Below are positions 22,471 to 64,000 of a stretch of 64,000 bases of DNA, one piece after another; position 1 is the stretch's first letter; each line of letters begins with the position of its first letter. The stretch is taken from assembly GCA_029260655.1 (NCBI GenBank), contig JAJDCU010000043.1:1-64000 (forward strand). Direction: 5' to 3'. The notes below the pieces were generated by a model, which was given only the letters and a program-made list of their open reading frames with translations, had not been told where the DNA came from and made no database searches. The position numbers and the translations under genes are program-made. The DNA comes from Phycisphaeraceae bacterium (GTDB taxonomy: Bacteria; Planctomycetota; Phycisphaerae; Phycisphaerales; Phycisphaeraceae).

Positions 22471-23895
22471 ATGGTTTTACCGACTCAAAAGGGCGACACT
22501 TTGAAGAAATCGACGAAAGTAAAGATCGGGGTTGCCGGGACGAGCCTGCTGCTGACGATGGGGACGCTTGAAGCGTTCTGGACCAATACCGACGGGGTGT
22601 CGCCCACCGACGGGAAGGTGTTGTACGGGATCAACCGGGATTCCGGGCAACTGTTCCGGTACGGCTTTGATGCGCAATGGCCCAGCAACGTCGGGGTGAT
22701 CACGGACGCGGACGGCAACACCATGGCAGGGATCGACGCCTCGGCCTCCATCCCCGGACATCAGAATATCTACGGCTTCTGGACCGACCCGGACGAAGGG
22801 TTGGTCCACTTGGTGTACGTCAACGCTGAGACGGCCGCCGGCACACCCGTCGGGGACGACCTGGGCCAGGGACAGGTTACCGGCGCGACCGCGGCACAGG
22901 TGGCGTTCGTTGACGACCACGACCACGACGACCACGACGACGATGATGATGGCCACGACGATGATCACGACGACGATGATGAACACGACGACGATGATCA
23001 CGGCCACGGTTCCCACGGCGATGACGACGATGATCACGGCCATCACGATGACGATGATGACCACGGTGACCATGACGATGACGACGACGATGATCACGGT
23101 GACCATGACGACGATGATGACGAAGACGATGACGATGACGACGACCACCACCACCATGCCCATGACGAGGCCGCCCTGGGATGGTCCCTCTTCGCGGTGC
23201 AGACCCTAGAAACAGAGCCGGATGACGACGACGATGACCACGAGGATCATGGCCATGGAAACGACGACGACGGGGTCGATGATGACAACCCCGGTAACAG
23301 CGACGGCGTGAACGAACACGGCCAGGGCCACGGCGCCCACGACGGCGACGGTGATGATGACCACGGCCATGACGACGGCCACGATGACCATGATGGCGAT
23401 GACGACGACCATGATGATCACGCCGACCACGATGAGGATGACCATGATGATCACGCCGATGATGATGAACACGGCGACGACGATGACGACGAGCACGAAT
23501 CCGCCTCGGTGACCGGGTACCGCCTGATCCAGGTGGATCACCACTCGGGTGACGTGACAGAGTTGATGACACTGAGCCGGTCGTACGACGGGCTGGCGAC
23601 CACGGACGGGCTGACGTTCATGGGCACCAGCGGATCGGACCTGTACCTGATCGACCCGGTCGCTCAGACCGAGACCCTTGTGGGCGCTTCGGGCCTGGAC
23701 GAGATGTTCGGCCTGGAGTTCGCGGATTCAACACTGATCGGGTTCGAGAACGTGGGCGATCGTCTCGTGCCCGTGGATGTGACGACGGGTTCGCAGTTGG
23801 GTTCACCGGTGAATATCGGCGCATCCAACCTGGGGACGATCGTCTTCATGAACGCATCGGTCGACCCGGCCAGCAACTCGGATTCATACGATTGA
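22471..23895 (+). CDS. Secreted Asp/His-rich (putative metal-binding) protein with propeller-like flanks
   Basis: Signal-like N-terminus; two long D/H tracts (DDDDHGHHDDDDDHGDHDDDDDDDHGDH...) between TDGKVLYGINRDSGQLFRYGFD and VTELMTLSRSYDGLATTDGLTFMGTSGSDLYLID. Start may be TTG 22501 (LKKSTKVKIG). Confidence 0.65.
   Translation: MVLPTQKGDTLKKSTKVKIGVAGTSLLLTMGTLEAFWTNTDGVSPTDGKVLYGINRDSGQLFRYGFDAQWPSNVGVITDADGNTMAGIDASASIPGHQNIYGFWTDPDEGLVHLVYVNAETAAGTPVGDDLGQGQVTGATAAQVAFVDDHDHDDHDDDDDGHDDDHDDDDEHDDDDHGHGSHGDDDDDHGHHDDDDDHGDHDDDDDDDHGDHDDDDDEDDDDDDDHHHHAHDEAALGWSLFAVQTLETEPDDDDDDHEDHGHGNDDDGVDDDNPGNSDGVNEHGQGHGAHDGDGDDDHGHDDGHDDHDGDDDDHDDHADHDEDDHDDHADDDEHGDDDDDEHESASVTGYRLIQVDHHSGDVTELMTLSRSYDGLATTDGLTFMGTSGSDLYLIDPVAQTETLVGASGLDEMFGLEFADSTLIGFENVGDRLVPVDVTTGSQLGSPVNIGASNLGTIVFMNASVDPASNSDSYD
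22912..23499 (+). repeat. Low-complexity gac/gat/cac coding repeat (D/H tracts)
   Basis: Runs of gacgacgatgatgaccac-type codons in two blocks, approx. 22912-23169 and 23221-23499. Confidence 0.85.
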
Positions 23896-51825: not shown

Positions 51826-53361
51826 GTGATGAGTGGCGACAGCCCGGCAACAACGAAGCAAACACCCGAGCGGCCCCCGGCCCCGGGTTGGTGGAAGTGG
51901 GTGGGTCTGCGCCGCCGGAGCGGGCGTTTGTTGAGGATCGTCCCCAACCGGTGGGGCTGGGTCATGCTGATCGGTGTAAGCCTGATTTCCGGGGCGCTGG
52001 GTTTCGCCGAATACTCTATGCAGCCGGAATTCTGCCGGTCCTGTCACATCATGGAGCCGTACTACCAGGCCTGGCACGAGTCGACCCACGCCGACGTGGC
52101 TTGTGTTCTATGCCACTTCGAGCCGGGGCTTGAGAAGACGCTCGAGGGCAAGTGGCAGGCGTCCAGCCAGGGCGTGAAATACATCACCAACACCTACGGG
52201 TCCAAGCCGCACGCCGAGGTCCGCGACAGCTCCTGCATGCGCGATGGCTGCCACGATCGCCGCCTGCTCGAAGGCAAAGCCGACTGGGAGGTCCCGACCC
52301 AGCGGGGCACGAAGATCACGATCAAGTTCGACCACACGCCGCATCTGACCGAGCTGCGCCGCGGCAAGGAACTTCGGTGTGTTTCCTGTCACTCGCAGAT
52401 CGTTCAGGGCCAGCACCTGGTCGTCACGCTGGACACCTGTTTCCTGTGCCACTTCAAGGGTCTCAAGCACGGCCGGGACGACGAGACACTCGGCGGCTGT
52501 CGGTCTTGCCACGAAACGCCCAAGGACGAGATACGGCTGACCAACGGGATCTTCAACCACGAGAGCTACATCGACCGGGGCGTGAGCTGCGAGAACTGCC
52601 ACGTCGACGCGGTTTCGGGCGACGGGGCCGTCCCCAAACAGCTTTGCTGGACCTGTCACAACCAGCCGGCGCAGATCGCTCGCTACGGCGAAACGAACTT
52701 CATGCACCAGAGCCACGTCACCGACAACAAGGTCGAGTGCTCGAGCTGCCACGTGCAGATCGTCCATCACCTGACCGCTGGCCCGGCGGCGTCGGGGAGC
52801 CTGCTGACCACGCTGGATTCACACGAGCAGGGCGATCAGAACGCCTGCTCCCAGTGCCACGACATGTCTCACAACGGCCCGCTGAACCTGTACCGAGGCG
52901 CGGCCGGCCGGGGCGTCCCGGACATGCCCAGCCCGATGTTTAACGCCCAGGTCGACTGCGTCGCGTGCCACAAGCAGCGCAAGTCGTCTCGGGATGTCGC
53001 CGGCGTCATGGGGCAGACCTACATCGCGGTCCAGGATTCGTGCGACGAATGCCACGGCGGTCATTACGAAGGCGTGTTGGACGAATGGCGGCAGACGGTC
53101 GGCCTGCACCTGGCTCAGGCCGAGCAGGCCAACGAACGGGCGCACGAAGTGATTGAATCGGCGAACATCCCCCCGGCCGAGTTACTCAAGCTCAAGCGGC
53201 TGCTGGATGACGCGGTCCACAACGTCCGGCTGGTCAAGCTCGGCCACGGCGTCCACAATGTCACCTATGCCACCGCGCTGCTCAACGTCGCCATCGAAAA
53301 CTGCAAGCAGATAGATGCCGCGGTCCACAACGACCCAGGAAAGGTTCAGGCCAGTCCGTGA
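51826..53361 (+). CDS. NapC/NrfH-like multiheme cytochrome with 12 heme motifs
   Basis: N-terminal TM then EYSMQPEFCRSCHIMEPYYQAWHESTHADVACVLCHFEPG (NapC/NirT-like); 11 CXXCH plus CMRDGCH. Confidence 0.87.
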   Translation: MMSGDSPATTKQTPERPPAPGWWKWVGLRRRSGRLLRIVPNRWGWVMLIGVSLISGALGFAEYSMQPEFCRSCHIMEPYYQAWHESTHADVACVLCHFEPGLEKTLEGKWQASSQGVKYITNTYGSKPHAEVRDSSCMRDGCHDRRLLEGKADWEVPTQRGTKITIKFDHTPHLTELRRGKELRCVSCHSQIVQGQHLVVTLDTCFLCHFKGLKHGRDDETLGGCRSCHETPKDEIRLTNGIFNHESYIDRGVSCENCHVDAVSGDGAVPKQLCWTCHNQPAQIARYGETNFMHQSHVTDNKVECSSCHVQIVHHLTAGPAASGSLLTTLDSHEQGDQNACSQCHDMSHNGPLNLYRGAAGRGVPDMPSPMFNAQVDCVACHKQRKSSRDVAGVMGQTYIAVQDSCDECHGGHYEGVLDEWRQTVGLHLAQAEQANERAHEVIESANIPPAELLKLKRLLDDAVHNVRLVKLGHGVHNVTYATALLNVAIENCKQIDAAVHNDPGKVQASP

Positions 53362-54938
53362 TTCATCGTAGGGTCCATCCCGGCGCACAGCACCCCGCAG
53401 ATCTGCGGCGCGGGTTTGTTGTTTTTGTTGCGGGTCTGTCGCTGTTAGCGATGGTTTGCGCCGGGTTGTCCGGCTGCGGGCATGAAGAACCTGCCGAGCC
53501 CGGTGACGACCACCGTGAACAGGTCGCCGCCGCGACGGCCGACCGCTACGACCCGGCGCTGGCCTCGGAGCCTCAAGCGCCCACTGCCGAAGCGATTTCA
53601 TTCAACACCCCGGCGCTCGAGAAACCCACCGAGCCCTTGCCCAAGGACGCATCCTGCATCACCCCCGGCTGCCACATCACCCTGGTCGACGCCAAGCACG
53701 TCCACGGCCCGGTCGCGGTCGCCGACTGCCAGTCCTGCCACGGGCAAGATGTCGGCGGGCATCAATACCCGCTGAAGCGCCCGGGCAACCAGACCTGCAT
53801 GTTTTGTCACCCCGTCGTCGGCGCACGCGAGCACGAGCACGAAGCGATCAGCGCCTCGGGGTGTGTGGCCTGTCACGATCCGCACCGCTCGGACACCAAC
53901 TTTCTGCTCGCGGAGTCGTCTATCGAGTTGACCTGCGCCTCATGTCACGACACCCCGCTGAAGAAACACGCCCACGGCCCGTTCGCCGCCGGGCAGTGCA
54001 CGGTCTGTCATCAGCCGCACGAGGCCAACGCCTCGAACCTGCTTCGAAGCGGTGATCAGCCCGAGCACTGCTACGGCTGCCACAGCGAGATCGACTTGCG
54101 CGTGGGCAATTCCCCGTTTGTCCACGAGCCGCTTAAGGAAGGTTGCACGGCCTGCCACGACGCCCACACCAGCGATTTTCCCTTCCAACTGGCCGCGCCG
54201 ATCACGCAGAGCTGCCTGGACTGCCACGAGCAGATGGCCAAGCGAGTCAGGGATGAGCCCGTTTCGCACGATGCGCTTTTCATCGCCGACGGCTGCGCTA
54301 ACTGCCACGATCCGCACGCCTCGGCCGATCCTAACCTGCTGCGTGACCGGGCGGACCACCTTTGCCTGGCCTGTCACGAGGACCCGGTCGAGGCCTCGGA
54401 CGGCAGGACGATCGTGGGCATGAAGCCGACGCTCAACCGCCGATTCCTGCACGGGCCGGTGAGGGCCGGGGACTGCGCCGCCTGCCACAGCGTCCACGGC
54501 GGGCAGAACGCTCGGCTGTTGCTGGAGAAGTTCCCCGACACCTTCTACGCATCGTTTGAGCTTAGCAGCTACGCCCTGTGCTTTAGCTGTCACAGCCCCG
54601 ACCTGGTGATGACCGAGAACACGGCCGAACTCACCGGGTTCCGCGACGGCGATACGAACCTGCACTACACCCATGTCCACCGTGACAAGAAGGGGCGGAC
54701 CTGTAAGACCTGCCACGACATCCACGGTAGCGACCTGCCCCAGCACATGGCCAGCGAGGTCCCCTTCGAGGGTTCGAGGTGGTCGATGCCGATCAACTTC
54801 ACCAAGGTCCAGGGCGGCGGGTCCTGCGCCCCGGGCTGCCACGAACCCAAGACGTATCGTCGAGGGCCTGCCACGACCCCCGCGCCGCCGCTGCCGACCC
54901 AGCCCGACGACGCCTCAATTACGGGTGAGCCATCATGA
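53358..54938 (+). CDS. 15-motif multiheme cytochrome c lipoprotein, paralogue B
   Basis: Lipobox-like LSGCGHEE; CITPGCH + 13 CXXCH + CAPGCH. Confidence 0.88.
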   Translation: MIHRRVHPGAQHPADLRRGFVVFVAGLSLLAMVCAGLSGCGHEEPAEPGDDHREQVAAATADRYDPALASEPQAPTAEAISFNTPALEKPTEPLPKDASCITPGCHITLVDAKHVHGPVAVADCQSCHGQDVGGHQYPLKRPGNQTCMFCHPVVGAREHEHEAISASGCVACHDPHRSDTNFLLAESSIELTCASCHDTPLKKHAHGPFAAGQCTVCHQPHEANASNLLRSGDQPEHCYGCHSEIDLRVGNSPFVHEPLKEGCTACHDAHTSDFPFQLAAPITQSCLDCHEQMAKRVRDEPVSHDALFIADGCANCHDPHASADPNLLRDRADHLCLACHEDPVEASDGRTIVGMKPTLNRRFLHGPVRAGDCAACHSVHGGQNARLLLEKFPDTFYASFELSSYALCFSCHSPDLVMTENTAELTGFRDGDTNLHYTHVHRDKKGRTCKTCHDIHGSDLPQHMASEVPFEGSRWSMPINFTKVQGGGSCAPGCHEPKTYRRGPATTPAPPLPTQPDDASITGEPS

Positions 54939-56302
54939 CGCGCTACCTCTCGATCCTCGCCGCTATCACGGTCGCCGCGACATCCCTTAGCGCGGCCCCG
55001 GTTCCGCCCACCATCGAGGTGGCGTCCCAGGGGTGTGTCACCGCCGACTGCCACGCAAACATTAAGCGGCACAACGTCGTCCACGGCCCGGTGAACGTCG
55101 ACGCCTGCGACGCCTGCCACACCCTCACCGATGCCAAGACACACACCTATCGACCCACACGCGATGCGTCGGAGACCTGTACCTTCTGCCACGTGGTTGA
55201 GACGGAGGGCGCCGCGGTCGTGCATGAACCGCTGACGACCAGGCAATGCACCGGTTGCCACGATCCGCACGGCGGGTTCGACCGCAACTTCCTCAAGGCC
55301 GAGTCGATGAACGGGCTGTGCGCCTCTTGCCATCAGGACGTGACCGGTGACAAGCAGACGGTCCACGGCCCGGTCGCCGCCGGCGCTTGCGGGATGTGCC
55401 ACCAGCCGCACACATCGCAGTACCCCAAACTCCTTGTCGAGCAGGGCCGGACGCTTTGTATCGGATGCCACAGCGAGATGCAGCAGCAGATCGAGCAGGT
55501 CGGGTTCGTCCACCAGCCGGTCCAGGAAGACTGTACGGCCTGCCACAACGCCCACGCCTCAGACCACCCGATGATGCTCAAGCAGGCGCCGGGACAGCTC
55601 TGCACGACCGCCTGTCACGAGGATGTGAAAAAGGCCGTCACCCAGGCCACGCATCAGCACTCGGCGGTGACACAGGACAACGGCTGCGTCAACTGCCACA
55701 CGCCTCACGGCGGGGATCTGGCCAAGCTGATGAAGGACAAGCCGATCCAACTGTGTCTGCGCTGTCACAACCAACCGATCAACACCGACTCCGGTGAGAT
55801 CGTCCAGGCGGTATCCGAGCTTGCCGACCCGGAACTCAACAAACACGGGCCGGTGAAAGAGGGTAGCTGCGGCGGGTGCCACAACGTCCACGGCTCTGAC
55901 ATCGCGAACCTGCTGATCCTTGAGTACCCAGGCACGTTCTACCAGTCGTTCGATCTTAAAAAATACAGTCTCTGCTTCGAGTGCCACGACAAGCAGTTGG
56001 TCCTGACGCCCAGCGCCCAGGGGCTGACCGGTTTCCGCAACGGCGATCAGAACCTTCACTACTTGCACGTGAACAAGGACAAGCGCGGCCGAAGCTGCCG
56101 GGCCTGTCACAGCGTCCACGCCAGCGCCCACCCGGTGCATCTGCGCGAGTCGGTCCCCTACGGGCAGTGGGAGTTGCCGATCAAATACAGCCCGACTCCC
56201 ACCGGCGGCGGCTGCGCCCCGGGCTGCCACCTGCCCAAGGACTACGACCGCGAACGGCCCGTCGATTACAACCCCAAGCCCAGTGAGGGCACATCACCAT
56301 GA
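54935..56302 (+). CDS. 15-motif multiheme cytochrome c, paralogue C
   Basis: Signal peptide; CVTADCH + 12 CXXCH + internal CTTACH + CAPGCH. Confidence 0.88.
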   Translation: MTRYLSILAAITVAATSLSAAPVPPTIEVASQGCVTADCHANIKRHNVVHGPVNVDACDACHTLTDAKTHTYRPTRDASETCTFCHVVETEGAAVVHEPLTTRQCTGCHDPHGGFDRNFLKAESMNGLCASCHQDVTGDKQTVHGPVAAGACGMCHQPHTSQYPKLLVEQGRTLCIGCHSEMQQQIEQVGFVHQPVQEDCTACHNAHASDHPMMLKQAPGQLCTTACHEDVKKAVTQATHQHSAVTQDNGCVNCHTPHGGDLAKLMKDKPIQLCLRCHNQPINTDSGEIVQAVSELADPELNKHGPVKEGSCGGCHNVHGSDIANLLILEYPGTFYQSFDLKKYSLCFECHDKQLVLTPSAQGLTGFRNGDQNLHYLHVNKDKRGRSCRACHSVHASAHPVHLRESVPYGQWELPIKYSPTPTGGGCAPGCHLPKDYDRERPVDYNPKPSEGTSP

Positions 56303-57372
56303 CACACCCGACACATAACCTGTTGACCTTCCCACTCGCGCTCAGATCGGCACTGACCGGTCTTGCCCTTGCACTGATGCTGCCCACAGGCGTTGTCATG
56401 GCAGACGACAGCGCCTCGCCCGGCGAAGCGGACGACCGGGCACAGGCCGCTGCGCCGCAAGTTCAATGGCAAGCTCAAGACACCGTCGGCAATCCTGTCG
56501 TGGTCCCCGCGCCCGAGCGCACAAGCGTGTTGCTGTTCCTGATGGCCGACCAGAGCCGCAGCACCTACGCGGTAGATCAGGTTCGCGCCTTGTTGGCGGA
56601 TGAGCCCGGCGTCCAGGCGGTGGCGATTTTCAGCGGTCATGAGGCGGGCGTCGGTGCCGCCCAGATAACCGAATCGGGCACGTGGCCCAGGCCGATCGTG
56701 GTTGATCCTGAGTATAAAGCGTCCGGGTTGATGAGCGTCCGTGTCTGGCCGACCACCGTCATCGTCAATGCCGCCGGCGAGCAGGTCGCCCACCTCGGCG
56801 GGCTGCGCGCGTCGTACACCAAAGACATGCGCGCTTACCTGGACTATTGCAACGGCTCGATTGATAAGCAGGCCTTGAAGCAGCGTCTTACGTCCAACGG
56901 CCTGGTCGCGTCCACCTCCGACCACGTCGCGTCGCGTCACCTGCAACTGGCGCTTCGGCTTTTGGGAAAAGGTCAGGTTGCCATGGCCCGCGAGGAGCTT
57001 GATCGCGGCCTGGCGGTGGAGCCGGACAACACGCAATTGCTTTTGGCTTCGGTGCGGGTGCATCTATTGACCGGTAAGCCCAACGAGGCGATACAGACGT
57101 TGGATCGCCTGCCAGACGGCGCGGTGTCCTGGCGGGTCAAGACGTTGCGTGGCCGAGCGATGGTCGCGCTTGGACAATGGGACCAGGCGCGCGAGGTTTT
57201 AACCGATGCCTTGAAGGTCAACCCCGATCCGGCGGAGGCCTACTACTTCCTGGGCCGGGTCCATCAGCACCATCAGGACTGGTCTGAGGCGGCGCATGCA
57301 TACCGTAGCGCGTTTGAAAAAAGCACCGCGTCCCACGGCCTGGCCGAGTCGGAAACCCAAGAAGACGACTGA
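56299..57372 (+). CDS. Thioredoxin-fold (no CXXC)/TPR protein, partner C
   Basis: SVLLFLMADQSRS...ASGLMSVRVWPTTVIVNAAGEQVAHLGGLRASY then TPR-like repeats (AYYFLGRVHQHHQDWSEAAHAYRSAF). Confidence 0.7.
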   Translation: MTHPTHNLLTFPLALRSALTGLALALMLPTGVVMADDSASPGEADDRAQAAAPQVQWQAQDTVGNPVVVPAPERTSVLLFLMADQSRSTYAVDQVRALLADEPGVQAVAIFSGHEAGVGAAQITESGTWPRPIVVDPEYKASGLMSVRVWPTTVIVNAAGEQVAHLGGLRASYTKDMRAYLDYCNGSIDKQALKQRLTSNGLVASTSDHVASRHLQLALRLLGKGQVAMAREELDRGLAVEPDNTQLLLASVRVHLLTGKPNEAIQTLDRLPDGAVSWRVKTLRGRAMVALGQWDQAREVLTDALKVNPDPAEAYYFLGRVHQHHQDWSEAAHAYRSAFEKSTASHGLAESETQEDD

Positions 57373-57744: not shown

Positions 57745-58365
57745 ATGAAGCCCAGACTACTCATCTTCACAATGGCCATCGGATTGGTCATCACTACGAG
57801 TGCCCAGGCGGCCATCTCAGGTTCCGACCACGACTTCAGCGGTCAGGCCTGGTCTGGCGGGACGATCTGCCAGCCCTGTCACGCCCCGCACGACGGGCCC
57901 AATGCCAGTTCGCTCGGTCTGCTGTGGAACCACGAGGTTCCCTCCTATGCCAACTACACCCTTTACGAAGGTGCGACCTCCAACGATGGTTTCGCCGGAC
58001 TGGACCGCGACAGCCAGGCATGCATGAGCTGCCACGACGGATCGATCGCATTGGACAGCTTTGGCGGCACGACCAACGGCACCCAGTTCATCGGCGCCAG
58101 CAAGCAGATCGGCGCCGGCACGGGCGACCTCAGCAACGATCACCCGATCGGCGCCGTGGCCGTGTATGACGTCACCTCCACCTCGCTGACTCCCGACCCC
58201 AAAGCCAACGGTGTTCGGATCCGTTCCATGACCGTCGCTGGCCAGGCCGAGAGCGTCGTCAGCTGCGCATCGTGCCACTCGGTCCACAATAAGGCAAGCC
58301 TGCCCCAGTTGCTCCGCGTCACTAACTCCGGCAGCCAGTTGTGCCTGGCCTGCCACGTCAAGTAA
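57745..58365 (+). CDS. Small secreted tetraheme cytochrome c
   Basis: Signal peptide MKPRLLIFTMAIGLVITTSAQA; CQPCH, CMSCH, CASCH, CLACH; last heme motif 2 residues from the C-terminus. Confidence 0.88.
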   Translation: MKPRLLIFTMAIGLVITTSAQAAISGSDHDFSGQAWSGGTICQPCHAPHDGPNASSLGLLWNHEVPSYANYTLYEGATSNDGFAGLDRDSQACMSCHDGSIALDSFGGTTNGTQFIGASKQIGAGTGDLSNDHPIGAVAVYDVTSTSLTPDPKANGVRIRSMTVAGQAESVVSCASCHSVHNKASLPQLLRVTNSGSQLCLACHVK

Positions 58366-58385: not shown

Positions 58386-58432
58386 CCACTGGCGGGCTGG
58401 TCGATCACGACCAGCCCGACCAGTGGTTTTAT
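58386..58432 (+). terminator. Strong intrinsic terminator after the tetraheme cytochrome gene
   Basis: ccactgg c gggctggtcg atca cgaccagccc ga ccagtgg followed by ttttataaaaa. Confidence 0.85.
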
Positions 58433-58568: not shown

Positions 58569-60029
58569 ATGAAAACCAATAACAATCGCATCCTCGACCT
58601 ACGCCCCTGGTTCACTGCGGCCCTGCTGATAGGCGCTGCCATGCTAGGCGGTTGCAGCGGCGCCCCTTCCACCGAGAAGACCGCACAGACATTCGCCTTC
58701 TGGCCGCCGTACCCCGATGAGCCAAGGATCCAATTCCTCACGTCCTACCAGTTCAGCAAGGACATCGAAGAGCCGGGTACCAAACTCGAAGAGTTGATCT
58801 ATGGCGAAGCCGGCCAGCAGGTGCTGCCGATCAACAAGCCCTACGGCGTCGCCATGAATCAAGGCCGGATCTATGTCTGTGATATCCGCAGCCCAAGCGT
58901 GGTCGTGCTGGACCTGCGCAAGCGTCAGACCCGTGTGATCGGCACCACCGGGGTCGCCCGCCTGGAACGTCCGACAGACGTCGCCATCGCGCCTGACGGT
59001 TTGATCTACATCGCCGATATCGGCGGTAACCGCATTGTCGTGTTCGACCAGAACGAGCGTTATGTCACACGGTTTCAGCCCCCGCAGTTCAAGCCCGGGG
59101 CCCTGGCTGTGACCCAGGAACATATCTACGTCAGCGACTACGTCAGCAAGCAGATCCTGGTGTTGGACCGTTTAACGGGGCAGGAACTCAGACGGATCGG
59201 CACCCCCGACGGCGGTGGCAATGACGGGCAGTTCATCCGGCCCCTGGGCGTCACCGTCGATAAGCAAGGGCGCCTCATCGTCAGCGATGTCCTGAAAGCC
59301 CGTATCCAGATTTTCTCGCCCGAGGGTAAGTTCCTGTCCGGATTCGGGGAGATATCCACCGGGATCGGTGGGTTCGTCCGGCCCAAGCACCTGGTGACCG
59401 ATTCAGATGATCGGATCTACGTGGTGGACGCCGCGTTTCAGAACGTCCAGATCTTTACCTACGAGGGCAAGCTGCTGACGTGGTTCGGCAACGCCGGCGA
59501 ACACCCCGGCGCGATGTTCCTGCCCGTCGGCATCGCCGAGCATGAAGGCGACCTGGACCTGTTCCAGAATTATTTGCACCCGTCCTTCCAGGCCGAGCGC
59601 CTGCTGATTGTGACCAACCAGTTCGGCCCGGCCAAGGTCGCGGTCTATGCCCTGGGCCGGCTCAAGCCCGGCGCTACGGTCGAAGACATCCGCGTCGATC
59701 TCGCCGAGGTGAACCTCGGGCTCGACGACAGCAAGCCCGACCCAACCCCCTCGCCGCCGCGCAAGCCCGGGGACGAACCCGGAGCGGAACCCAAAGCAGA
59801 ACCAGTAGCTGAGCCCAAGGCAGAACCAGAAGCTGAGCCCAAAGCGGAACCCAAAGCGGAACCAGAAGCTGAGCCCGCCGTTGAGCCCACAGATGAACCC
59901 GTTGCAGAACCCACAGCAGAGCCCGAAGCAGAGCCCGAAGCGGAACCCGTCGCCTCGCCCAAGATGAACCCGTCGCCGCAAGCGGCCGATATACCCGCAG
60001 GCAACCGCGCTGTCGGGTCCGAGAAATGA
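58569..60029 (+). CDS. NHL-repeat beta-propeller lipoprotein with Pro/Glu/Ala-rich tail
   Basis: Lipobox-like AAMLGGCSG; NHL blades INKPYGVAMNQGRIYVCDIRSPSVVVLD, RLERPTDVAIAPDGLIYIADIGGNRIVVFD; AEPKAEPEAEPKAEP tail. Confidence 0.87.
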   Translation: MKTNNNRILDLRPWFTAALLIGAAMLGGCSGAPSTEKTAQTFAFWPPYPDEPRIQFLTSYQFSKDIEEPGTKLEELIYGEAGQQVLPINKPYGVAMNQGRIYVCDIRSPSVVVLDLRKRQTRVIGTTGVARLERPTDVAIAPDGLIYIADIGGNRIVVFDQNERYVTRFQPPQFKPGALAVTQEHIYVSDYVSKQILVLDRLTGQELRRIGTPDGGGNDGQFIRPLGVTVDKQGRLIVSDVLKARIQIFSPEGKFLSGFGEISTGIGGFVRPKHLVTDSDDRIYVVDAAFQNVQIFTYEGKLLTWFGNAGEHPGAMFLPVGIAEHEGDLDLFQNYLHPSFQAERLLIVTNQFGPAKVAVYALGRLKPGATVEDIRVDLAEVNLGLDDSKPDPTPSPPRKPGDEPGAEPKAEPVAEPKAEPEAEPKAEPKAEPEAEPAVEPTDEPVAEPTAEPEAEPEAEPVASPKMNPSPQAADIPAGNRAVGSEK

Positions 60030-60736
60030 ATGGCTATGCCCCAATCAGCAGGGTCAACCGTGGATCACAACTCAGCAGGCTTTTGCGCCTGCTGCCGGGG
60101 GCGGTTCTGGGTGTTTCGCTCTTGCTGGGGTTGACCGGCTGCGATCCTGAAAAACACTATGAGACGCTGTCGTTTTTCTTCGATGGCGTTCCCGATCCCA
60201 ACGCCCCGGTGGAGGACCTGTCCGATACGCCCGGCGCGCAGGCCCGCAGGCGGTTGGCGATCAAGCTGAAGTTTCACCCGCCCTACGCGGAGGAGAAATG
60301 TAATGCCTGCCACCTCTCACATGAGCCGGCGGCGCTGATGCCCGACGCCTCGGTCTGCCTGACCTGTCACGCCCAGGTACCCGAGCAATTCCAGATGATG
60401 CACGGCCCGGTCGCGGCCGGGTCCTGCCTGACCTGCCATAACCCCCACCAGTCCACCGACAACTACCTGCTCCGCAGACCCGCGCGGCAGATGTGCGCCA
60501 GTTGTCACGAACCGCCGGATACACTCGAACCGCTTCCACCGGCACACTTGGATCCGGAGCAATCGTGTATCAACTGCCACCACGGGCACGGGGGGGACAA
60601 TCCATACTTCCTGCGCGAACCGGGCCCGGAACAAACGGATACAGAGCAAACGGACGCGGAGCAAGCGGACCAGGAGTCGGACCCCGCCCCGTCCGCGCCG
60701 CCGACCGCCGATGACAACGGGGGGGCGCCTGGATGA
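60026..60736 (+). CDS. Pentaheme cytochrome c lipoprotein
   Basis: Lipobox-like LLGLTGCDPE; CNACH, CLTCH, CLTCH, CASCH, CINCH. Confidence 0.85.
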   Translation: MNGYAPISRVNRGSQLSRLLRLLPGAVLGVSLLLGLTGCDPEKHYETLSFFFDGVPDPNAPVEDLSDTPGAQARRRLAIKLKFHPPYAEEKCNACHLSHEPAALMPDASVCLTCHAQVPEQFQMMHGPVAAGSCLTCHNPHQSTDNYLLRRPARQMCASCHEPPDTLEPLPPAHLDPEQSCINCHHGHGGDNPYFLREPGPEQTDTEQTDAEQADQESDPAPSAPPTADDNGGAPG

Positions 60737-62781
60737 CCCGCTGCCGCATCCAACCCCCTTGCCTACTCGGCGCGGTCTGGTTGATAACCGCGCTTGTGTC
60801 TGTCCTCATAGGCGCCGAAGCCGCGCTGGGGCAGAACGGGTCGATCATCATCAATCAGCGCCAGGAGTTGCCGCTCTTTGAGATCGAAGACATCCACGGC
60901 GCCGTCGGGCTGGAGTATCGCCAGCAGTCCGACACCTCTGACTCCGCCGGACAGTCCTCGATGACCGACACCGAGGAAGAGTGGAGTCAACTGTTTGAAC
61001 TTTCTACCAATGCCTTCATCAAGCACCCCAACTTCGTGGACCTGTCATTGTTCGGGTCGTTCCAGTTCGAGCAGGAGGACATCGACTCCGCGTCCCCCGG
61101 CGGCGACCTGCAACGGAACGAGACGGTCCAGGAATACGACGCCCGCGCGACGATCCTGCGGCGAAGCAGGGCCCCGCTTACCCTGTTCGGGACCCGGCTG
61201 CAGACCCAATTGGACCGGCAGTTTGGGCCGACCATCGAGAACATCGACACCTCCACCGGGTTCAACTGGGTGGTCAGCCTCCCAAGCTCAAATCACAACT
61301 TCGGGTTTACCCACCGGACCATAAGCCAGGACGATCCGTCGAATAATGCCTCCAACAGCTTCGATCAGGACGAAGACCTCGTAGACCTGTCCAGCCGGTT
61401 CAGCCTCGGGCCGAATAACCAACTGGATTTCAACTATCACTTTGACAAGATCGATCAGACCGCACCGGTCCGCACCGAGATCAGTTACTCCCGGCACGAC
61501 GGGGACCTGACCCACACGATCGACTTCGGCCCGGACCAGGGCCATAACCTCCGGTCACGGTTCGAGTACTTCGACCAGCAGGGCGACTTCCCCGAGCAGC
61601 GGTTCCGCTGGGACGAACGGCTTCGGCTGCACCACTCGGACACGCTCGAATCGATCTCACATCTGTCCGCGCTCGATCAGACCCGTGCCGGCGTGACCCA
61701 GCGCGCTTACGCCGGAGAAATGCTAATGCGCCACCGGCTCTACGACAGCCTGACCACCACCGCGCAGGTCGGCGGGCGCAGAGACGATTTCTCCGATGGG
61801 TTTACGATCGATGATTACTTCGGCGACCTGACCTTCGATTACACCAAGCTCGTTCCCGGCGGCCAGATCTCAGGGGACCTGCGTCTTCGGCACGACCAGC
61901 AGGACAACAGCGAGCGGGGTCAGCCCTTGCAGATCCTCCGCGAGCCGCACGCCTTCCTGGACCCCAGCCCGGCAACCTTGAGCCGGGCCAACATCGACAC
62001 GACCAGCATCGTCGTACACAACATCTCCAACCTGCTGGCGCCGCCGGTCTACAGCGAAGGGATCGATTACACCGTGCGCGTCCTGCCCAACCGCGTGGAG
62101 CTGCGCCGCGTCGTGACCGGCCGGATCGTCAACGGCGAGAGCGTCGAGATCGACTATATCATCAGCCCCGAGCCGGCCCACGAAACAACGTCCGACACGG
62201 TCGGGTTCGGGCTGCGCTACGACATCCGAGAGGGGCCCCTCGCGGGCCTGGCGCTGTACATGCGGCAATTGATAATCGACGAATCCATCAGCAGCGACAG
62301 GCCGACCGCCCTGGTCGCTAATTCCCTGGACGAGTTGACGCTGGGCGTGGAATACCGCTTCTGGGTCGTATTCCTCGAGGCCGAGCACATCACCCACGAC
62401 AGCGAGATCTCGCCGTTCAAGGAGCTGCGCTTCCAGGCGCTGGCTCACCACCGCCTGTCAGGCAGCGACTCGCTGGACCTGCGAGCTCAGTACACCGAGA
62501 CCGACTTCACGGACGAAGACAACGTCGCCAAGCTGCTATCCGCCAGCGGCACGTTGAACCATCAGTTCGACAACAGGCTCTCCGGTCAGCTCGAACTGCT
62601 TTGGTATCAGCTAAGCGAAGACATCTCGGAAGACAGCACGTCGTTTGAGCAGAGGCTGAACCTGGACTGGCGTCACCGTCAGACCAGTGTGTTCCTGCAG
62701 GTCCGCAACGAGGTATTTGAATCCGATTCGAGTGAAACGACGTCACAATCACTGTTTGCCGGGGTGCGCAGGGCGTTTTAA
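60733..62781 (+). CDS. Putative outer-membrane beta-barrel protein
   Basis: Signal peptide; alternating amphipathic strands (NQLDFNYHFDKIDQ, ISGDLRLRHDQQDNSERG, RTSVFLQVRNEVFESD-type); terminal FAGVRRAF ends in F. Confidence 0.75.
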   Translation: MTRCRIQPPCLLGAVWLITALVSVLIGAEAALGQNGSIIINQRQELPLFEIEDIHGAVGLEYRQQSDTSDSAGQSSMTDTEEEWSQLFELSTNAFIKHPNFVDLSLFGSFQFEQEDIDSASPGGDLQRNETVQEYDARATILRRSRAPLTLFGTRLQTQLDRQFGPTIENIDTSTGFNWVVSLPSSNHNFGFTHRTISQDDPSNNASNSFDQDEDLVDLSSRFSLGPNNQLDFNYHFDKIDQTAPVRTEISYSRHDGDLTHTIDFGPDQGHNLRSRFEYFDQQGDFPEQRFRWDERLRLHHSDTLESISHLSALDQTRAGVTQRAYAGEMLMRHRLYDSLTTTAQVGGRRDDFSDGFTIDDYFGDLTFDYTKLVPGGQISGDLRLRHDQQDNSERGQPLQILREPHAFLDPSPATLSRANIDTTSIVVHNISNLLAPPVYSEGIDYTVRVLPNRVELRRVVTGRIVNGESVEIDYIISPEPAHETTSDTVGFGLRYDIREGPLAGLALYMRQLIIDESISSDRPTALVANSLDELTLGVEYRFWVVFLEAEHITHDSEISPFKELRFQALAHHRLSGSDSLDLRAQYTETDFTDEDNVAKLLSASGTLNHQFDNRLSGQLELLWYQLSEDISEDSTSFEQRLNLDWRHRQTSVFLQVRNEVFESDSSETTSQSLFAGVRRAF

Positions 62782-62803
62782 GATCAAGACGAGGAAGTCA
62801 GCC

Positions 62804-63931
62804 ATGACAGATACTCAACGTGCTTCGGATCCGCGGCCGCCCCTGCGGGTGTTGGCGTCGGCTCGTCGGGCTTGCGCGCGGCGCTGGGTTTGTTGGCGCT
62901 GGATGGTTTTAGTCATGGTGGGGTGGGCCGTAGCCGGGTGCGCCGCGCCCGCGGGCCCGATCTTCCTCGCCCAGCCGGACGACCCGTTCTGGCCTGCGCC
63001 CCCCGAGCTGCCGCGGGTCAGGTACGTCGGGTCGCTGAGCACCGACCAAGACCTGAAGCCGGAAAAATCCTTGTTCACCCGCGTGGGCGAATCCTTGTTC
63101 GGGGACGAAGCGGCGCAGGGGATGCTCAGCCCTTATGCCTTGTGCACCGATGGCGGCGACCGGCTGTTCGTCGCCGACTCCAATGCGCAAGTTGTTCACG
63201 TCTTCGACCTTGCGACGCGCCAATACGCGCGGTGGGCGCCGCCGGGCCCCGATGGCGAGCCGGGGCGTTTCTCCCAGCCCGCCGGCGTGGCGTATGACCC
63301 GGCGGGGCGGTTAATCGTCTCCGACTCGGTCGAGGGCTCGTTGGTGGTGTTTGACGATCAGGGCGTCTACCTCGGTCGGATCGGCGAAGCGTCGCTGAAG
63401 CGCCCGGCCGGTCTCGCGATCGACCCCGATCGCCAACGTCTATTCGTCGCAGACGTACCCACCCATCAGGTCGTGGTGATGACACTCGAGGGTGAGTTGA
63501 TCCGCCGGCTGGGCCAGCGCGGCGCCGGGCCGGGCGAATTCAATTTTCCGACCAACGTCGCCGTCGACAGCGAGGGCCGGCTATACGTCAGCGATTCGCT
63601 GAACTTCCGCGTCCAGATGTTCGACGTCGAACTCCGCCCGACCCGTCAGATCGGCCGCGGCGGCAACCTGCCGGGGTACTTCTCCCAGCCCAAGGGAGTG
63701 TCGGTTGACCAGGACGGGCACATGTATGTGGTCGATGCTCATTTTGAGGCGGTTCAGATCTTCGACGCCACCGGGCGGCTGCTGCTGACCTTCGGGGAAG
63801 AGGGGCGCGGGCCCGGTCAGTTCTGGCTCCCGGCGGGGATCTTCATCGACCCGAGCAACCGGATCTGGATCGCAGACACGTACAACCGGCGCGTCCAGGT
63901 CTTCGACTACCTGGTGGAGGATCAGCCATGA
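62804..63931 (+). CDS. NHL-repeat beta-propeller lipoprotein (paralogue of 58569)
   Basis: Lipobox-like WAVAGCAAP; NHL blades FSQPAGVAYDPAGRLIVSDSVEGSLVVFD, FNFPTNVAVDSEGRLYVSDSLNFRVQMFD, FWLPAGIFIDPSNRIWIADTYNRRVQVFD. Confidence 0.87.
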   Translation: MTDTQRASDPRPPLRVLASARRACARRWVCWRWMVLVMVGWAVAGCAAPAGPIFLAQPDDPFWPAPPELPRVRYVGSLSTDQDLKPEKSLFTRVGESLFGDEAAQGMLSPYALCTDGGDRLFVADSNAQVVHVFDLATRQYARWAPPGPDGEPGRFSQPAGVAYDPAGRLIVSDSVEGSLVVFDDQGVYLGRIGEASLKRPAGLAIDPDRQRLFVADVPTHQVVVMTLEGELIRRLGQRGAGPGEFNFPTNVAVDSEGRLYVSDSLNFRVQMFDVELRPTRQIGRGGNLPGYFSQPKGVSVDQDGHMYVVDAHFEAVQIFDATGRLLLTFGEEGRGPGQFWLPAGIFIDPSNRIWIADTYNRRVQVFDYLVEDQP

Positions 63932-64000
63932 ACCGCTTTGTATTCGCCTTGCCCGTGATCCTGATCGCCGCTTCGGTTTATGGCCAGGCAGGCCGCGGCG
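63928..64000 (+). CDS. 5' end of a secreted protein truncated by the window edge
   Basis: ATG overlapping the upstream stop; signal peptide MNRFVFALPVILIAASVYGQAGRG. Confidence 0.55.
   Translation, partial: MNRFVFALPVILIAASVYGQAGRG

Follow-up and report, generated by a model that had tools for sequence, protein, structure and literature searches.

A 64,000-nucleotide window from contig 43 of a Phycisphaeraceae bacterium (JAJDCU010000043.1, Planctomycetota) contains a six-gene unit that probably constitutes an extracellular electron transfer locus resembling the Uet (undecaheme electron transfer) system. The genes lie on the forward strand and encode, in order, a secreted tetraheme cytochrome (OmcEa), an NHL β-propeller lipoprotein (NHL1), a pentaheme lipoprotein, an outer-membrane β-barrel, a second NHL β-propeller lipoprotein (NHL2) and a large secreted multiheme cytochrome (OmcEb). 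Coordinates are given in window numbering; the contig extends to 126 kilobases (kb).

Components of the six-gene cassette

The original prediction, made from the letters of the window, described an NHL lipoprotein, pentaheme lipoprotein, barrel and NHL lipoprotein at 58569–63931 as a candidate porin-cytochrome conduit, and all four genes are present with the features claimed for them. NHL1 (58569–60029, +, 486 residues), which occupies a conserved position, carries the lipobox LGGC and matches the Pfam NHL family (E=4e-20), while NHL2 (best start 62804, to 63931, +) carries the lipobox VAGC (Pfam NHL, E=2e-34); as predicted, the two propellers are related, with 33% identity (E=2e-42). Between them lie the pentaheme gene (60026–60736, +, 236 residues), with five CXXCH motifs, the lipobox LTGC and a Pfam CXXCH match (E=4e-22), and the barrel gene (60733–62781, +), whose 682-residue product ends in ...RRAF, in line with the expected barrel-like protein of ~680 residues ending in Phe. 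The genes had been called overlapping, which holds for the ATGA junctions of NHL1 with the pentaheme, of the pentaheme with the barrel and of NHL2 with OmcEb; the barrel and NHL2 genes are instead spaced by 22 nucleotides. The predicted limits were too tight, since the system is defined by two OmcE-family cytochromes that fell outside them. These are the UetA-like OmcEa (57745–58365, +), with 206 residues, four CXXCH motifs and no lipobox, and the UetJ-like OmcEb, which starts at 63928 (+) and runs through the window end at 64000 to contig position 65541, so that the cassette does continue past 64000, a point raised in the original prediction. OmcEb has 537 residues, 11 CXXCH motifs, one CX3CH motif and an N-terminal OmcE domain.

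The AlphaFold2 model of the barrel (predicted local distance difference test score, pLDDT, 92.1; predicted template modelling score, pTM, 0.75) contains ~28 membrane strands by our count and no plug, and its N-terminus is a loose stretch of ~14 residues. The barrel is thus neither narrow nor filled, either of which would have counted against the original prediction, and together with the match of the pentaheme profile to the MtrA chain described below this supports the porin-cytochrome conduit reading. The secondary structure of the model also reveals a domain inserted between strands 17 and 18 (mature-chain residues 365–443; 61927–62163, +), which would be extracellular if the topology is standard. 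The 682-residue protein has no Pfam or NCBIfam match, and none of 42 members of the barrel family gives an MtrB-type Pfam match. Sequence comparison places it in a UetC-like family, as it is homologous to the barrels of the Uet-type gammaproteobacterial loci L074, L106 and L131 (E=3e-55 to 8e-62). In structural searches with Foldseek the third hit was the barrel chain of the Mtr complex, 6r2q_B. The high rank of other matches suggested a TonB-type receptor or LptD, identities that were rejected given template modelling (TM) scores of ~0.3 and the plug-free model.

The pentaheme is related to MtrA and is the proposed plug of the conduit. Among solved structures its profile best matches chain 6r2q_A (E=1.4e-30), taken as MtrA since the entry is the Mtr complex, the chain label in the sequence file being wrong; the pentaheme is homologous to MtrA yet half as long. 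In 21 aligned pentahemes the lipid-bearing Cys is invariant and is followed, 5 to 9 residues later, by the motif LSFFFDGVP. The same motif is found on 9- and 10-heme versions of the plug, and five triheme-type loci (L074, L093, L099, L106 and L131) each have a shortened form, FFDxP, on one triheme of the pair that precedes the barrel. This FFDxP triheme is likewise a lipoprotein and has an anchor similar to that of the pentaheme, although the heme domains are unlike. The anchor motif occurs in 45 of the 59 heme genes upstream of a barrel compared to 14 of 1589 other open reading frames, ~6 of which are pentahemes at other positions. Because the motif is common to 3-, 5-, 9- and 10-heme modules, the anchor peptide may serve to dock differing heme modules to one barrel family.

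Both terminal genes of the cassette belong to the family of the nanowire cytochrome OmcE. OmcEa matches OmcE in phmmer searches (7tfs, E=5e-17; 9yuq, E=4e-21), as do the first 209 residues of OmcEb (7tfs, E=2e-30), and the OmcE nanowire is the sole significant Foldseek hit of an OmcEb family model of mediocre quality (pLDDT 67). A C-terminal CX3CH motif accompanies the CXXCH motifs in 83 of 87 OmcEb homologues. CX3CH motifs near the C-termini of OmcEb and of the DmsE-like cytochromes encoded at 53358–56302 suggest an extra heme that CXXCH scans miss. The OmcE reference region has nine His residues, which we followed in 84 aligned OmcEa-type proteins and in the N-terminal domains of 83 OmcEb proteins. 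The eight heme ligands, four from CXXCH motifs and four distal, are conserved in 92–100% of OmcEa and 98–100% of OmcEb proteins, and the ninth His is conserved in none of either. One interface heme of OmcE receives a His ligand from the adjacent subunit, according to PMC12954529. As all eight ligand His residues are retained, one of them this cross-subunit ligand, the interface ligand appears to be conserved in both OmcEa and OmcEb, as judged from the alignment, and OmcEa may polymerise into filaments.

The OmcEa gene is followed by a stem-loop with a T4 tail (58386–58431, +), resembling a terminator or a messenger RNA-processing hairpin. A scan for consensus terminators after OmcEa gave no match, for which a bulge in the stem is the probable reason; direct folding of the sequence past the stop codon shows a strong hairpin (z=-8.2). 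In relatives, structure with z<-2 is found after 40% of OmcEa genes compared to 2–11% of the other cassette genes (Mann-Whitney p 2e-6 to 5e-11), an imperfect control given the short or overlapping form of most junctions compared, with the OmcEb end (11%) the fairest. A hairpin at this position fits a surplus of OmcEa over the conduit parts, and thus production of OmcEa in excess as a filament subunit.

The propellers show features of their own. NHL1 ends in a repeat tail of ~90 residues rich in Glu, Pro and Ala (59740–60000), perhaps a spacer. At loci L052, L062, L063, L067 and L068 an NHL1-type propeller is fused to eight CXXCH motifs (~650 residues), possibly forming a redox-active propeller.

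Distribution of the cassette

A search with the barrel sequence alone found the barrel in 46 of the 199 genomes of the host's class, and a barrel profile found it in 21 of the 395 genomes of the host's phylum. Around the class barrels the same set recurs, namely OmcEa, NHL1, plug, barrel, NHL2 and OmcEb. Further loci were collected by scanning GTDB genomes with an OmcE-led alignment. Overall, the strict six-gene order is present at 13 loci, Verrucomicrobiota and Thermodesulfobacteriota among them, with an Opitutae bacterium and a Syntrophaceae bacterium among the carriers. Another 15 loci have the OmcEa-NHL-plug-barrel run, among them loci of Bacteroidota, Ignavibacteriota and Calditrichota, and five loci, mostly gammaproteobacterial, show the form NHL-tetraheme-triheme-triheme-barrel-NHL-11-heme. 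Partial versions of the cassette are found in ~10 phyla. Cultured carriers of such loci include Aestuariivivens sediminis and Desulforhopalus sp. IMCC35007 (L132 and L144). Because the same order recurs in unrelated phyla, the cassette is not a chance arrangement, and synteny likewise rules out the NHL proteins as chance neighbours.

To describe the surroundings of the barrel, neighbours within 6.5 kb were counted for 39 barrels picked by barrel sequence alone. A gene with at least three hemes was present at 38 of the 39, an NHL gene at 37 and an 11-heme gene at 34. The NHL propellers had been regarded in the original prediction as an unusual addition to a conduit; the counts identify them instead as a conserved part of it. 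The prediction had also named wide occurrence of the cassette without respiratory cytochromes as grounds for doubt, and the multiheme gene near 38 of 39 barrels speaks for the conduit.

In a tree of OmcEb the Planctomycetota group together with weak support, and the sequence nearest to the window copy comes from a Phycisphaeraceae genome (75% identity), which most likely places the host in that group. A second, diverged cassette is located on contig 17 of the host genome (L030:5286-13520), with a 10-heme plug instead of a pentaheme and with its upstream NHL gene inverted; its OmcEb is distant from the window copy in the tree. Nearly all doubled-CXXCH matches of the host genome fall in these two loci.

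A proposed conduit-to-filament path and its alternatives

On the basis of the observed gene order, homologies, lipoboxes, conserved heme ligands and barrel fold, we consider it probable that the cassette encodes a conduit joined to an OmcE-type filament, in which barrel and pentaheme form the wire, OmcEb the adaptor and OmcEa the nanowire. The barrel in the outer membrane would hold the lipid-anchored pentaheme as a trans-membrane wire. Outside the cell, OmcEb would receive electrons, held in place by both NHL lipoproteins, whose propellers may dock to the conduit, and would pass them on to OmcEa filaments, its OmcE-like N-terminal domain providing the base of the filament. On the inner side, periplasmic DmsE-like cytochromes could connect the conduit to the respiratory chain encoded upstream, and the products of the adjoining ccm operon would attach the hemes.

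The genes on either side provide candidates for these roles. Upstream of NHL1 lie, in order, OmcEa, a TPR protein, DmsE-related 12- and 13-heme cytochromes, a NapC-like gene, cytochrome b subunits and a NapAB-like nitrate reductase. The 13-heme lipoprotein (53358–54938, +) and the 12-heme cytochrome (54935–56302, +), both candidate periplasmic electron partners, match the NCBIfam DmsE-type decaheme model below its cut-off (E=9e-37 and E=6e-43, respectively), and DmsE-like genes also lie near cassettes in relatives. The TPR protein (56299–57372, +; Pfam TPR), a possible helper, has an N-terminal half that reads as thioredoxin-like from its sequence. Downstream of OmcEb are ccmE, ccmF, one further gene, a ccmA-like gene that Pfam recognises only as an ATP-binding cassette (ABC) ATPase, ccmB and ccmC, assigned by Pfam, and a hemA-like gene read from its sequence. 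The nearby NapAB-like genes fit electron uptake coupled to nitrate; respiration with an external acceptor fits equally well. The upstream genes belong to a larger respiratory supercluster (30883–57372) with NrfD-like and iron-sulphur, NapAB-like, cytochrome b, NapC-like and DmsE-like multiheme genes, in which a thioredoxin-TPR protein follows every DmsE-like gene or pair. At 22471–23895 an open reading frame contains very long Asp/His-rich stretches (DDHDDDDDDHGDHDD...) and possibly encodes a metal-binding protein.

A broader proposal, which we put forward tentatively and with less confidence than the conduit-filament path itself, is that nanowire and outer-membrane wire form one coded machine in ~10 phyla. 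OmcEb would be a dedicated adaptor that presents a filament interface through its OmcE domain and, through heme coordination, splices the OmcE-type filament to an MtrAB-like conduit, and plugs of 3+3, 5, 9 or 10 hemes would be interchangeable in one barrel family through the lipid-Cys...FFD(G)VP anchor.

Several points weigh against a conduit joined to a filament. At some loci the barrel lacks a recognised plug, and five hemes, half of those in MtrA, might not span the barrel alone. In Foldseek the barrel finds generic matches, with TM ~0.3 throughout and siderophore receptors and LptD scoring alike, and these support a large barrel rather than kinship with the Mtr barrel. The omcE locus of Geobacter encodes cytochromes with 10 and 8 hemes and a barrel without detectable kinship to that of the cassette. 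Finally, relatives of Geobacter and Desulfuromonas (L162-L165) have OmcEb divided between a 4-heme and a 7-heme gene, which together with an NHL gene stand beside a type II secretion-like operon with F, E, PilM/N/O-like, secretin and pseudopilin genes (the L165 contig ends before the NHL gene). No such operon was found by phmmer adjoining the other loci; several secretion-F genes are present elsewhere in the host genome.

A fair rival, though one that we judge unlikely, is that the locus encodes a machine for nanowire export and assembly, with the barrel as exit channel for OmcEa and OmcEb, the propellers shaping or bundling the filament and the heme lipoprotein only priming assembly, as has been proposed for the Geobacter osc cluster. 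The wide barrel of the model and the NHL lipoproteins adjoining omcE in Geobacter would suit such a machine, and the osc operon, which serves OmcS, is described with parts for secretion (OscEFG), folding (OscH) and filament morphology (OscD) in a secondary source (PMC13194489). However, the barrel's partner is a lipoprotein of MtrA or triheme type that carries the conserved anchor motif, an arrangement more in keeping with a wire than with an open channel. The cassette also lacks a prolyl isomerase, the nearest matches to Rotamase_2, the one isomerase family searched, being on other contigs, and at the Geobacter-related loci the OmcEb homologue has a more conventional exporter beside it in the type II secretion-like operon. 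Somewhat less likely again is a conduit without filaments, in which OmcEa, non-polymerising, and OmcEb would be surface terminal reductases or oxidases like MtrC and OmcA. Homology to OmcE is no proof of polymerisation, and OmcEb has the same His residues in one long chain, where all may be satisfied internally. Against this stand the retention of all eight OmcE ligand His residues, the cross-subunit one included, in 92–100% of OmcEa proteins, and the hairpin after OmcEa in many lineages, which suggests excess production. It is highly improbable that the genes are unrelated neighbours, in which case cytochromes would adjoin an uptake receptor or a large porin of generic type and the NHL proteins would have some other function. 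The lack of a Pfam family for the barrel would agree with this, as would its Foldseek matches, which include siderophore receptors and LptD beside the Mtr barrel; the cross-phylum gene order, the ATGA coupling, the multiheme gene beside 38 of 39 barrels and the absence of a TonB-type plug from the model argue against it, and synteny already refutes it.

For the question of how cytochrome nanowires connect to the electron path through the outer membrane, and for the debate on whether they work in physiology at all, a compact locus of wide conservation that encodes a conduit, propellers, an adaptor-like 11-12-heme protein and a nanowire subunit offers defined partners to test, in hosts that have far fewer competing cytochromes than Geobacter. 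The planctomycetes also join the list of likely extracellular electron traders.

Comparison with known systems

The closest relative on the filament side is OmcE of Geobacter (7tfs), a homologue of OmcEa and of the OmcEb N-terminal domain, both of which keep its eight ligand His residues; the NHL lipoproteins adjoining Geobacter omcE belong to the same family as those of the window. We had expected to find the window cassette at that locus, a candidate that was rejected since the adjoining barrel shows no detectable membership of the family (hhalign probability 11%), and the three whole Geobacter genomes tested contain no homologue of the window barrel.

On the conduit side, the cassette shares with MtrCAB (6r2q) a large unplugged barrel, an MtrA-related heme protein and a surface multiheme protein. 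The MtrB barrel has 26 strands. The window barrel, by contrast, has ~28 and no MtrB-type Pfam match, its plug is a lipoprotein with five hemes in place of ten, the surface protein is of the OmcE rather than the MtrC type, and NHL propellers are present.

The oetABI locus of syntrophic sulfate reducers combines a barrel, multiheme proteins and nanowire-type cytochromes (PMC10553843), and propeller-fold proteins are found in related SEEP-SRB1 operons (PMC5539420). By description, OetABI and Geobacter osc resemble the window cassette in uniting a barrel with multiheme and nanowire-type proteins at one locus, and differ in that their nanowire-type cytochrome is OmcS- or OmcX-like. In the original osc paper OscD is reportedly propeller-like and OscEFG channel-like.

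The strongest likeness is to Uet, which in Tenderiales, Gallionella and Leptothrix comprises, according to PMC10734462, the tetraheme UetA, the prolyl isomerase UetB, the barrel UetC, the trihemes UetDEG, the NHL proteins UetHI and the undecaheme UetJ, the published UetJ clusters having 11 or 12 hemes. The system, known from Ca. Tenderia electrophaga, has been proposed to function in electron uptake, as stated in PMC12575090. The OmcE-family tetraheme, the barrel, the two NHL proteins and the 11-CXXCH cytochrome of the window correspond to UetA, UetC, UetHI and UetJ, and gammaproteobacterial loci that fit the Uet list contain homologues of the window barrel, NHL and 11-heme proteins; the likeness was drawn through this published gene list and these loci. 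The window cassette differs in its planctomycete host, in the adjoining ccm operon and in having an MtrA-related pentaheme in place of UetDEG-type trihemes. As for a UetB-like isomerase, contigs 26, 49 and 69 carry Rotamase_2 matches whereas contig 43 has none, other isomerase families not having been searched. Because trihemes and a linked isomerase are absent from the cassette, we call it Uet-like rather than a full member of Uet. Thus, the window cassette is a divergent Uet-like variant of a little-studied system and not a new kind, with Uet itself the closest system described.

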